Origin: Nitratidesulfovibrio sp. SRB-5
GTDB taxonomy: Bacteria > Desulfobacterota > Desulfovibrionia > Desulfovibrionales > Desulfovibrionaceae
Direction of reading: 5' to 3'
Length of the DNA: 64,000 nt
NCBI RefSeq assembly: GCF_019931275.1
Contig: NZ_JAIOTY010000001.1
Span: forward strand, 124,001 to 188,000
Below, piece by piece: positions 2,902 to 50,617 of the stretch (positions within the stretch are counted from its first letter, which is position 1; each line of letters starts with the position of its first letter). Position numbers and translations under genes: made by a program. Under the pieces are notes generated by a model. That model ran no database searches. It was not told the DNA's origin and saw nothing but the letters and a program-made list of their open reading frames with translations.

Positions 2902-2986
2902 CGGGGGAGGGAGGAAGGAACTTTTGAAAAAGTTCCTTCCTCCCTCCCCCGAACCCCCTCCCTTCTTCCTCAAAACTTTTCAACGG
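2902..2986 (+). repeat. A-type hairpin repeat, copy A1 (plus orientation)
   Basis: Bases 2902-2925 and 2928-2951 form a perfect 24-base inverted repeat (CGGGGGAGGG...AACTTTT and its complement) with only two bases between the arms. The inward tail is C-rich and ends in CAAAACTTTTCAAC. It faces copy A2 (3064-3140), so the two hairpins bracket about 80 bases. Together they fill the 327-base gap between the ruvX start and the stop of the FAD/Fe-S gene. No protein was seen here. Confidence 0.85.
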
Positions 2987-3063
2987 TGGGGGGGGGCGGT
3001 CAAAGGGAAGGGGCGGTCATGTTCAGAGCGGGATGGCTCCCTCGTCGCGTCAGGGCGTGGTCC

Positions 3064-3140
3064 CTGTTGAAAAGTTTGAAGGGGTGGAAGGGGTCCGGGG
3101 GAGGAGGGGAAACTTTTCAAAGTTTCCCCTCCTCCCCCGG
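3064..3140 (-). repeat. A-type hairpin repeat, copy A2 (minus orientation)
   Basis: Arms 3095-3114 and 3121-3140 are perfect 20-base complements (CCGGGGGAGGAGGGG...) around a six-base loop. On the minus strand the hairpin comes first and the tail (CTTCAAACTTTTCAACAGGG, 3064-3083) follows. It lies 27 bases after the stop of the large minus-strand oxidoreductase, in sense orientation, so it may act as its terminator. Confidence 0.85.
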
Positions 3141-25431: not shown

Positions 25432-25673
25432 ACGGACAAACCCAGACTCTTGCGGGGGAGGGACCCTTTTGGAAAAGGGTCTCCTCCCCCGGCCCCCTCC
25501 CCCCCAAAAAAACTTTTGTTTGTGTTTCCTGTGTATTACGAAAGCACAAAACATGGGGATTCAAGGGGCGGCAGCCGCTCTGCGATCGCCATCCGTAAGG
25601 CTCGCAAGCGCGCCTAACGGCTGCCGTCCTTGGCCGCCGGAGGCGTTCAAAAACAGACGTTGCCAATAGCCGC
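25432..25673 (+). repeat. Long A+B repeat unit, plus orientation
   Basis: About 240 bases. It contains a lead-in ending GACAAACCCAGACTCTTG, hairpin A at 25454-25490 (GGGGGAGGGACCCTTTT and its complement), the inward tail (CCCCCTCCCCCC then AAACTTTT), a spacer, and core B at about 25575-25670. Core B runs CTGCGATCGCCATCCGTAAG, then CTAACGGCTGCCG, GCCGCCGGAGGC and AAAAACAGAC. Nearly the whole unit recurs in reverse at 50345-50588. It lies directly between two near-identical terminators. No start codon or protein was found inside. Confidence 0.85.
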
Positions 25674-25705
25674 AAAGGCCCGCCGGGAAATCCCGGCGGG
25701 CCTTT
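25674..25705 (-). terminator. Terminator, second copy, facing the TPR gene
   Basis: AAAGGCCCGCCGGG, AAAT and CCCGGCGGGCCTTT, the same hairpin as at 25395-25425. It is symmetrical and could end the minus-strand TPR transcript (stop at 25782). Confidence 0.8.
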
Positions 25706-25781
25706 GCGTGCAGTGTGACCGACAGTCGGGCGGCCTGCGTGGTGGTGGCGGCGGGTGCGCCCGTTGGCGCCACGTGCCCGC

Positions 25782-30708: not shown

Positions 30709-30876
30709 TTGCGGGGGAGGGACCCTTTTGGAAAAGGGTCTCCTCCCCCGCGCCCCCTCCCCCCAAAACTTTCAATTGTCTTTAGGCACGCCCCGTGTGT
30801 TGAAAGCGGGCATTTCGGGGCAGCCCACGGTTGGTTTTGTGGTTGCGGGAGGCGTTCGGAAACGGACGTTGCCAGT
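30709..30876 (+). repeat. A-type repeat with partial B core, copy A4
   Basis: Hairpin GCGGGGGAGGGACCCTTTT-GG-AAAAGGGTCTCCTCCCCC spans 30711-30751, followed by the CCCCCTCCCCCCAAAACTTTC tail. About 100 bases later the B end is recognisable as GGAGGCGTTCGGAAACGGAC and GTTGCCAGT (about 30848-30876). The B middle with CCGTAAG and TAACGG is missing, so this copy appears internally deleted. It abuts a perfect 52-base palindrome. Confidence 0.8.
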
Positions 30877-36563: not shown

Positions 36564-36624
36564 GGTGGTGTGGCTTGAAGATGACGGGGCGCTGCCCCGT
36601 ACCCCGCAAGGGGGCCGCGCGCCT

Positions 36625-36824
36625 TGCGATCGCCATCCGTAATGTTCGCGCGTTGCGCTCACATAACGGTTGCCGTCCCCTTGACCCCTTTTGCCGCCAG
36701 CCCCCGCACTGCGTGCGGAATCTGGCGGATACGGGGTGCGCTTCAGTAGCCCCCTACTAAAAAGTTTGGGGGGATGGGGGTACGGGGGAAGGAGACCCTT
36801 TTCAAAGGGTCCCTTCCCCCGAGA
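36625..36824 (-). repeat. B core plus A hairpin, copy A5
   Basis: Core B (GCGATCGCCATCCGTAATG then CATAACGGTTGCCGTCCCC) lies at about 36625-36680. A minus-oriented A hairpin lies at 36783-36821 (CGGGGGAAGGAGACCCTTTT and its complement) with its tail toward B (AAAAAGTTTGGGGGGATGGG). The hairpin starts seven bases after the queH stop in sense orientation. Together they occupy the 265-base gap before hemW. Confidence 0.8.
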
Positions 36825-41908: not shown

Positions 41909-42164
41909 GGGGGAGGGGCACCCTTTGGAAAGGGTGGCCCCTCCCTCGTACCCCCGCTTTGCTGTCGCCATCCGTAAGGTTCGTGCAAGCGCTCACCTAA
42001 CGGATGCCGCTCCCCTCCTAAACTTTTTAGTTGGGTGGTGATTTGCGCAGGCTGGCATGTGTTGCTATCTGCATGTCACCCCAATTGAAAAGCTTTGAAG
42101 GGATGGAGGGGGGTGCGGGGGGAGGAAGGGGAACTTTCCCGAAAGTTCCCCTTCCTCCCCCCGC
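41909..42164. repeat. Complete inverted A-B-A element
   Basis: 256 bases. A plus-oriented A hairpin (41909-41946, GGAGGGGCACCCTTT and its complement) is followed by core B at about 41950-42016 (GTCGCCATCCGTAAGG, CACCTAACGGATGCCG), then inward tails (CTAAACTTTTTAG, AATTGAAAAGCTTTGAAGGG). A minus-oriented A hairpin with perfect 24-base arms (42115-42138 and 42141-42164) closes it. It fills the gap between trmI and the ABC-F gene. An ORF of 13 codons (42057-42098) inside it is noted as a finding. Confidence 0.8.
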
Positions 42165-47890: not shown

Positions 47891-48096
47891 CGTTCGCGCT
47901 CCGTCCTTTCGCCCTCCGGCTGACCGACCCAAAGGGCGCGAAGCGTGGCCGTTAGACGAGCTTGCGAGTCTTACGGTCATCGAGAGCAGAGCGTCAGATT
48001 TCGCCTTTTGCTCCGGTCACGTACGAGAAGAGTACGCTCCCTTCGCAAAAAGGCTCATCTTCCTTGCCGGAGAACGAAAATCCTGTCGCGCGAACG
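47891..48096 (+). repeat. C-type large hairpin C1 with nested B core
   Basis: Outer arms CGTTCGCGC (47891-47899) and GCGCGAACG (48088-48096), then TTTCGCCCTCCGGC against GCCGGAGAACGAAAA, enclose the family centre TCCGGTCACGTAC-GAGAA-GAGTACGCTCC (about 48012-48040). About 70 bases at 47921-47992 (GGCCGTTAGACGAGCTTGCG, TCTTACGGTCATCG) are a reversed B core, and they interrupt the left arm relative to copies C2 and C3. It fills the gap before the glycosyltransferase. Confidence 0.8.
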
Positions 48097-50091: not shown

Positions 50092-50153
50092 CGCCCCTGC
50101 GGCAGCCGTGCGCCAGAGGCGAAACGGATACGGAAGGGGCAGGATCCGAAAGA

Positions 50154-50183
50154 AAGGGCCGGACGTTCATCGTCCGGCCCTTT
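50154..50183 (+). terminator. Terminator T1 of the microprotein unit
   Basis: AAAGGGCCGGACG, TTCAT and CGTCCGGCCC, then TTT: 10-13 pairs and a T run. Almost the same hairpin occurs at 50316-50344 and 50589-50617. Confidence 0.85.
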
Positions 50184-50315
50184 CTCGCGCACGGCACCGC
50201 CGGTCTTGCGGCGTGTGCGTGCGCCGCCACGCAGGCGCAGGCGGCATTGACTGCCGCCGTCAGCGGCGGAGTGGGCGTGCCTTTCCCCCGCCCTGCGGGG
50301 GCATGTGTAAGTGAC

Positions 50316-50344
50316 AAGGGCCGGACGTTCATCGTCCGGCCCTT
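50316..50344. terminator. Terminator-like hairpin T2
   Basis: AAGGGCCGGACG, TTCAT and CGTCCGGCCCTT: identical stem and loop to T1. No gene ends between T1 and T2. The about 130 bases between them are GC-rich with a CCCCCGCCCTGCGGGGG hairpin. Confidence 0.8.
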
Positions 50345-50588
50345 CAGGTTATTGACAAAGTCTGTTTTTGGAAGCCTCCGGCGGCCAAGGACGGCAGCCG
50401 TTAGTCGAGCTTGCGAGCCTTACGGATGACGATCGCAGAGCGGCTACCGCCCTTTGGAACCCCATGCTTTGTGGTTTTGTAATATCCAGAAAATACAAAT
50501 AAAAGTTTTTGGGGGAGGGGGTGCGGGGGAGGGACCCTTTTTCAAAAGGGTCCCTCCCCCGCAAGAATTTGGGTTTGTCATCAACCTG
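50345..50588 (-). repeat. Long A+B repeat unit, minus orientation
   Basis: Read on the minus strand it begins near GACAAACCCAAATTCTTGCG. It continues with hairpin A (50561-50523), the CCCCCTCCCCCAAAAACTTTT tail, a spacer with ATTACAAAACCACAAAGCATG, then core B (CTGCGATCGTCATCCGTAAG, CTAACGGCTGCCGTCC, AAAAACAGAC). By eye it matches 25432-25673 over nearly its entire length. It sits between hairpins T2 and T3. Confidence 0.85.
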
Positions 50589-50617
50589 AAGGGCCGGACG
50601 AATATCGTCCGGCCCTT
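50589..50617 (-). terminator. Terminator T3 of nrfA
   Basis: AAGGGCCGGACG, AATAT and CGTCCGGCCCTT, the T1/T2 stem with a different loop. It lies 53 bases after the nrfA stop on the minus strand. Confidence 0.82.

Follow-up and report, generated by a model that had tools for sequence, protein, structure and literature searches.

Nested palindromic repeats of two kinds at an intergenic element of Nitratidesulfovibrio sp. SRB-5

The intergenic stretch at positions 41909-42164 of the window (the whole stretch of 64,000 nucleotides that was analysed, part of a genome of 4.12 Mb in 11 contigs) carries two hairpins facing each other around a repeated core. This locus raises the question whether such an arrangement is a single mobile element with inverted ends or an assembly of parts that come and go separately. 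The initial annotation had listed eight copies of the hairpin (module A) and four of the core (module B) and had read the arrangement as one A-B-A element of a REP/MITE-like family.

Anatomy of the element and its relatives in the window

The eight A hairpins and the four B cores were all found where they had been placed, and A modules face each other at 2902-3140 and 41909-42162. The features of the window are as follows.

2902..2951, plus strand: A hairpin of a facing pair without B
2953..2985, plus strand: mirror tail of the 2902 hairpin
3066..3093, minus strand: facing A tail of the 2902 pair
3095..3140, minus strand: facing A hairpin of the 2902 pair
25454..25516, plus strand: A hairpin and tail in a composite element
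25576..25626, plus strand: B element
30711..30772, plus strand: A hairpin and tail without B
36620..36675, plus strand: B element
36761..36820, minus strand: A tail and hairpin
41909..41947, plus strand: left A hairpin with purine 5' arm, pyrimidine 3' arm and apex CCCTTTGGAAAGGG
41951..42035, plus strand: A tail (CCCC...CTCCCCTCCTAAACTTTTTAGTTGGG), split by B
41955..42009, plus strand: B element of 55 bp in the tail slot
42079..42113, minus strand: facing A tail
42117..42162, minus strand: right A hairpin
47944..47993, minus strand: variant B, the fifth B in the window and missed by the initial annotation, inside a 70 bp stretch absent from genome G007
50392..50442, minus strand: B element within a composite missing from G007 and G005
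50502..50560, minus strand: A tail and hairpin of the composite missing from G007 and G005

The split tail at 41951..42035 is predicted to pair with the tail facing it. At 25454-25720 and 50300-50600, A and B are parts of a longer composite with an additional module. A degenerate A pattern gave 15 matches in the window, a few of which are not A modules, against 2.04 expected from shuffling (largest shuffle 6). Over the whole genome, 45 raw matches to a stricter A-tail pattern, representing 36 distinct tails, compare with a single match to its backward control, and among the tail pairs of this stricter list lying less than 100 bp apart four were facing and none pointed apart. Three near-identical terminator-like hairpins (50146-50190, 50312-50345 and 50580-50612) stand around the last composite, and the loop bases of these hairpins are seemingly common within one strain, as if copied locally.

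The A hairpin and its mirror tail

The tail of module A is no plain terminal repeat: it mirrors the 3' arm of its own hairpin, locus by locus. Among 69 candidate A hairpins from loci of the genus, 34 had a 3' pyrimidine tail (33 distinct), a rule that 5'-side tails fail. In these 33 modules the 14-nt tails shared 75% identity with the mirrored arm of their own hairpin versus 62% with those of others, which was reached in 0 of 5000 permutations. When the tail was read as an antiparallel purine-motif third strand, on the strand that carries it as purines, the base opposite G was G in 131 cases, A in 7, T in 3 and C in 1, and the base opposite A was A in 87, T in 30, G in 32 and C in 2. Canonical triads made up 0.846 of this set versus 0.612 after permutation (0.868 versus 0.614 for the 26 distinct arms; 0/5000). 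The own-genome set, which overlaps the first in part, was collected with a fixed pattern for the tail; 35 of its 36 tails have a hairpin. Its 35 modules had G 125, A 3, T 0 and C 3 opposite G, and A 75, T 28, G 19 and C 0 opposite A, and canonical triads amounted to 0.896 versus 0.651 permuted in 26 distinct modules (0/5000), the first C-runs being set by the pattern and the positions after them loosely so (HHYCC). Third-strand T was almost confined to positions opposite A, as the T.AT triad allows, and G opposite A (32 and 19 cases) was the chief departure from the triad code. A loop longer than 30 nt, as with B inside, was present in 5 of 35 A hairpins.

To judge from its sequence, the A tail fits antiparallel G.GC and A(T).AT triads with the purine arm, as expected of PIT elements; the purine-motif triads were used as given in PMC4666352. 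A pyrimidine-motif triplex gave a poorer fit, because an A opposite A-T, read on the pyrimidine tail, is a mismatch there and corresponds to an allowed T.AT in the purine motif. After the collected A hairpins come a short linker and then a C-tract, with no direct T-tract as in an intrinsic terminator. The likeness of arm and tail could partly come from co-inherited pairs. Module A is best regarded as a family of the intrastrand-triplex kind that is new in sequence, a bacterial hairpin family in which locus-specific third strands co-vary with their own arms. Such covariation would be evidence at the sequence level that selection or mutation follows the triplex code.

As described in PMC4666352, the PIT, BoxC and TMECO repeats have in common with A a hairpin with a purine-motif third strand, many intergenic copies and unstable loci; intrastrand triplex motifs in E. 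coli are linked there to locus instability. E. coli TMECO belongs to class II, whereas A has the class I order on the purine-tail strand. The E. coli triplex motif copies are described in the same source as nearly identical. A differs from these repeats by locus-specific arms with code-following tails, by a common AAAACTTTT end and by the B element hosted in its loop. The main text of PMC4666352 makes no mention of Desulfovibrio.

The B repeat, its sites and its presence between strains

The B element is an imperfect palindrome of 50-57 bp. A covariance model was built from 29 copies, which match it by construction, and the own genome gave at least 138 matches at E<=1 and at least 110 at E<=1e-6 (150 of 3087 first-look candidates scored). 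Each of the eight genomes of the genus, the own one included, contained at least 90 to at least 97 matches (96 candidates scored in each). In the family, B was found at E<=1e-6 in at least 67 of 288 genomes and at least 15 of 44 genera (19 candidates scored per listed genome), and 15 family genomes picked as B-positive had 1 to 79 matches at E<=1e-4. No match at E<=0.001 was found in 24 genomes from other families of the same order, and in a phylum sample of 395 genomes at least 8 were B-positive at E<=1e-6, all of them Desulfovibrionaceae (14 candidates scored per listed genome).

B is predicted to fold into two hairpins: the main one has conserved mismatches, and the small one on its 5' side (GC..TGC) is closed by C-G in 87 of 137 rows and by A-T in 18. 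The main stem has 17 counted pairs with internal mismatches and opens C-G, then G-C or C-G. In 150 aligned copies (137 distinct; alignment fitted to the model) 16 of 20 pairs had two-sided changes and 92.7% of the cells were paired, values reached by none of 500 shuffles. The covariation trend was the same in an unfitted alignment of the 29 copies. Pair 14-87 contradicts the stem: both positions carry letters in 115 rows, and in 63 of these they do not pair.

The window's B had no match in the named phage and plasmid collections searched, and carriage of B by phages or plasmids was rejected on this ground. Among viral contigs, 38 stretches have a 15-mer of B, and the model matches 11 of the 38 at E<=0.001, two of the matching loci (L296 and L312) being one contig. 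On that contig (L312:2959-3600) the start of an apparent gene is repeated in tandem with a unit of 148 bp, and the repeat contains five B copies.

The orthologous gaps were compared between strains, and empty sites exist: the copies are not fixed everywhere. At the 41909 locus the own genome carries B in the tail slot only, and the loop slot of the left hairpin (41909..41947), empty in it, is B-filled in G002, G003 and G007. Both slots are filled in G002 and G007, each of which has an additional B nested in one filled slot, and the slot differs between the two. G003 has B in the loop slot only. In G005 the tail slot is empty and the left hairpin lies beyond the contig; in G001 and G004 the locus is interrupted by contig ends. 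Both slots are empty in G006, Desulfovibrio sp. A2 and the MAG Rs511, and the 55 bp of 41955..42009 are exactly absent from G006 and MAG Rs511. TrmI segments on contigs of N. liaohensis, N. oxamicus, Desulfovibrio sp. A2 and a Desulfovibrio MAG (L111-L114) are 97-98% identical to that of the own genome, in line with the genus Nitratidesulfovibrio; the genomes of the genus are close, and their trees are short-branched with mixed support. The contigs L086 (G001), L089 (G005) and L104 (G004) terminate at or just beside the A-A element, which suggests that the element hinders sequencing or assembly.

Slot states vary across genomes at three loci, and B subtypes at one slot differ between genomes. 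At C1:1177914, 57 bp lie exactly in the loop in the own genome and G007 is empty. For the right hairpin of this locus, G000 and G003 are filled; G001, G004 (a different hairpin), G006 and G007 are empty. For the left hairpin, the filled genomes are G002, G003 and G005 and the empty ones G000, G004, G006 and G007. The right half is lacking in G002 and G005, and the left half is off the contig in G001. At C1:336859 the own genome has a plain hairpin, G007 and G005 have 56-57 bp in its loop, and G001, G003 and G006 are also filled, with no intact hairpin in G004 and G002 cut off. This mixed polarity (five relatives filled, the own genome empty) indicates that precise loss or recombinational allele exchange also happens. 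Two more precise absences are those of 56 bp from G005 at C1:306424 and of 70 bp from G007 at C1:171944. Whole composites can be missing, namely one of 323 bp at C1:916389, which holds three B matches, one of about 394 bp at C1:198645 (in G007) and the composite at 50312-50600 of the window in G007 and G005, and many composite elements differ between genomes by complex changes. No target-site duplication was seen in the filled/empty pairs.

A count over contig C1 covered the 29 own-genome regions with a collinear G007 ortholog in the sequence examined: B was present anywhere in the G007 gap in 8 and in none of the other 21, two of the 8 (C1:485308 and C1:1409153) having B aligned away from the own copy and two G007 gaps containing runs of N. 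The orthologous locus in the single-contig G007 (G007:C1 near 3225500-3226760) has an inverted copy of the ABC-F gene start and a run of N, together with what we take to be rRNA-like sequence, and this arrangement is probably a misassembly at hairpins.

The A and B modules are real, yet they are a nest of independent parts and not one A-B-A transposon, which was rejected because B is polymorphic independently of A, and in two slots of one element. B is not a fixed centre: the facing pair at 2902-3140 has none, and three relatives lack it in their orthologous 41909 element. What stood of the initial reading was the REP/MITE-like repeat family; a single element made of a variable core between inverted ends was unsupported.

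The copies had also been described as all intergenic, and most are: by a rough rule, 7 of 134 tested B sites fall inside a coding-like frame. Where a gene was found on both sides (111 sites), 28 were convergent, 80 codirectional and 3 divergent. Among the matches listed, B sits inside A-type hairpins, A tails, larger composites and other B copies. B-in-B was seen at C5:13914 and C2:1209669 and, in a second form where the loop of the host holds a variant B, at C1:325777, C3:39275, C3:97300 and C3:97450 (again among the matches listed). The nested B uses the same internal position across different host copies, and the ATCCG position of B-in-B nesting falls in the host stem, not in a loop.

When B and the next base were removed, the junction fell within a hairpin loop (loop <=9 nt, closing stem >=5 bp, RNA energy parameters) at 29 of 137 sites versus 36 of 822 control positions from the same flanks (Fisher p 6e-10), and at 19 versus 16 with a stem of at least 7 bp. 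The remaining 108 of 137 copies fail this strict criterion, and many sit within larger composites. A flank complementarity score of at least 6 was reached by 34 of 137 sites versus 5.9% for mismatched flanks. By eye, the 3' junction of B in A loops is nearly always C followed by an A-run, and 0 to 3 loop bases stay 5'. In other genera, 27 of 31 contexts were usable (L069, L251, L247 and L259 were excluded as misplaced clipped loci), and most of the 27 were without a strong enclosing stem by score. B variants lie inside a GAGCAATTTCA/TGAAATTGCTC palindrome in G136 and G137, and G144 has a variant B in A-type hairpins with mirror-like tails.

Known relatives, driver and origin of the nested repeats

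Short repeated palindromes within other palindromes are common to B and to REPs as described in the consulted part of PMC3733652, which gives Anabaena GTAG-15, Thermomicrobium GTAG-23 and Halothiobacillus CGTC-1 as REPs inside palindromes. The terminal GTAG tag of GTAG REPs is absent from the B consensus of 150 aligned copies. In most of these copies the 5' foot is GGTC or TGTC, and this xGTC foot, with a frequent CA after the 3' foot, recalls the CGTC/TGTC tag and unpaired tail of CGTC REPs, a super-family for which the same part of PMC3733652 allows the tag variants TGTC and CCTC; judged by sequence, the foot may tie B to this group. The stems of CGTC REPs are given there as 8-9 bp opening A-T, whereas that of B is longer and opens C-G. 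As far as that part of the source describes REPs, B further differs by its extra 5' mini-hairpin, its self-nesting, the demonstrated filled and empty alleles and the lack of a Y1 domain match in 6 of 8 genomes of the genus.

The search for a transposase, which the initial annotation had proposed, covered the REP transposase domain and found no driver. The Y1 domain PF01797 had no match in these 6 genomes, including the single-contig G007, which has at least 97 B matches yet no Y1 match, and the matches in the other 2 were both partial. The single match of the own genome (L031:1501-1758) is a decayed fragment with an in-frame stop, and no B was noticed within the 3.3 kb read around it. No autonomous B copy was noticed in the sequence examined. 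A Y1 (HUH) REP transposase is therefore unlikely as the enzyme of B, and a RAYT-driven REP was judged unlikely in view of this search.

Our observations are probably best explained by a nest of two selfish or structural palindromes, a triplex-type A and an independent, non-autonomous B that favours hairpin loops. A would be a purine-motif intrastrand-triplex hairpin of the PIT/BoxC kind, present singly or in facing pairs with pairable tails, and probably serves as a loop-exposing target that destabilises its loci, as is reported for the intrastrand triplex motifs of E. coli. B would enter and leave as one unit, with no target duplication to be seen, would prefer the loops of other hairpins including A and would also enter B itself. 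It may move as single-stranded DNA in folded form, on the lagging strand or at A-stalled forks for example, with a host or element enzyme acting in trans to join it into the exposed hairpin loop. If A exposes loops that B enters, triplex-type DNA and mobile repeats would be directly linked. That B represents a new kind of mobile element, a gene-less hairpin of 50-57 bases that some enzyme, not related to the known REP transposases, joins as folded ssDNA both into its own copies and into hairpin loops (those of intrastrand-triplex hairpins included), is a tentative possibility.

The absence of any present transposition appears rather doubtful. Old B copies would then be removed by exact or almost exact loss of the hairpin tip (slippage, or SbcCD-type cleavage and repair) and their alleles exchanged by homologous recombination. 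C1:336859 resembles a loss in the own genome, the closeness of the genus would make alleles exchangeable, and the complex changes in many composites are in line with it. The right hairpin of C1:1177914, filled in 2 genomes and empty in 4, speaks against loss alone, as do the variation of B subtypes at one slot, the occurrence of B at one position within other B copies and its presence in unrelated palindromes of other genera.

Replication without a recombinase, in which the fork stalls at triplex hairpins and the nascent strand switches to another folded hairpin and copies it into the loop, is likewise rather doubtful. It would account for loop-tip insertion without target duplication and for arms that stay complementary at each locus, and A fits the triplex code, the intrastrand triplex loci of E. 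coli being unstable (PMC4666352, as far as its consulted sections go). Against copying alone stand the near-constant unit ends and 3' junction of B (the base right after the model end is C in 113 of 137), its conserved mismatches and its invariant blocks, which together suggest recognition by a protein.

A known recombinase class, for example an IS110-type or integron-type enzyme working on folded DNA, is an unlikely mover of B, although the lack of target duplication and the targeting of palindrome loops agree with it. The GTTAGG-like motif in the B arms is presumably an integron-type resemblance and was counted in its favour; the order of the two arm boxes, which we take to be opposite to that of attC, was counted against it.

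Very improbable is a function of B and the composites as structured RNAs or as terminator/3'-end elements under transcript selection, since the strong covariation of B and its placement mostly downstream of genes are set against few G-U intermediates (42 of 2494 pair cells), the absence of B from 21 of 29 orthologous regions of the close relative G007, A hairpins followed by a C-tract and not a U-tract, and the lack of an Rfam family. No known RNA family for these elements was found in Rfam 15, where the window had 0 matches at gathering score and 12 composite-bearing loci gave at E<=0.5 only tRNA, a sub-threshold SECIS_3 and two weak matches.

The nest of A and B is favoured over these accounts, and what is new in it is the A/B combination, the self-nesting, a triplex code particular to each locus and the lack of a Y1 match in most genomes of the genus. 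Mitochondrial double-hairpin or repetitive hairpin elements are, like B, repeated hairpins without genes of their own; they are organellar, unlike A and B, and we know of no triplex-type hosts for them. Palindrome-in-palindrome REPs and triplex repeats are already known kinds in the parts of PMC3733652 and PMC4666352 consulted. Among the best-listed literature matches, which come mostly from outside the subscription journals, no description of A or B modules in Desulfovibrio was found. Many polymorphic single-unit insertion sites are present in closely related genomes, so that the spread of palindromic repeats without an evident transposase becomes testable. Finally, a composite of about 300 bp with two or three B variants and a multibranched predicted fold was observed at L174, L180 and L155, and one copy of it is cleanly absent from G007.
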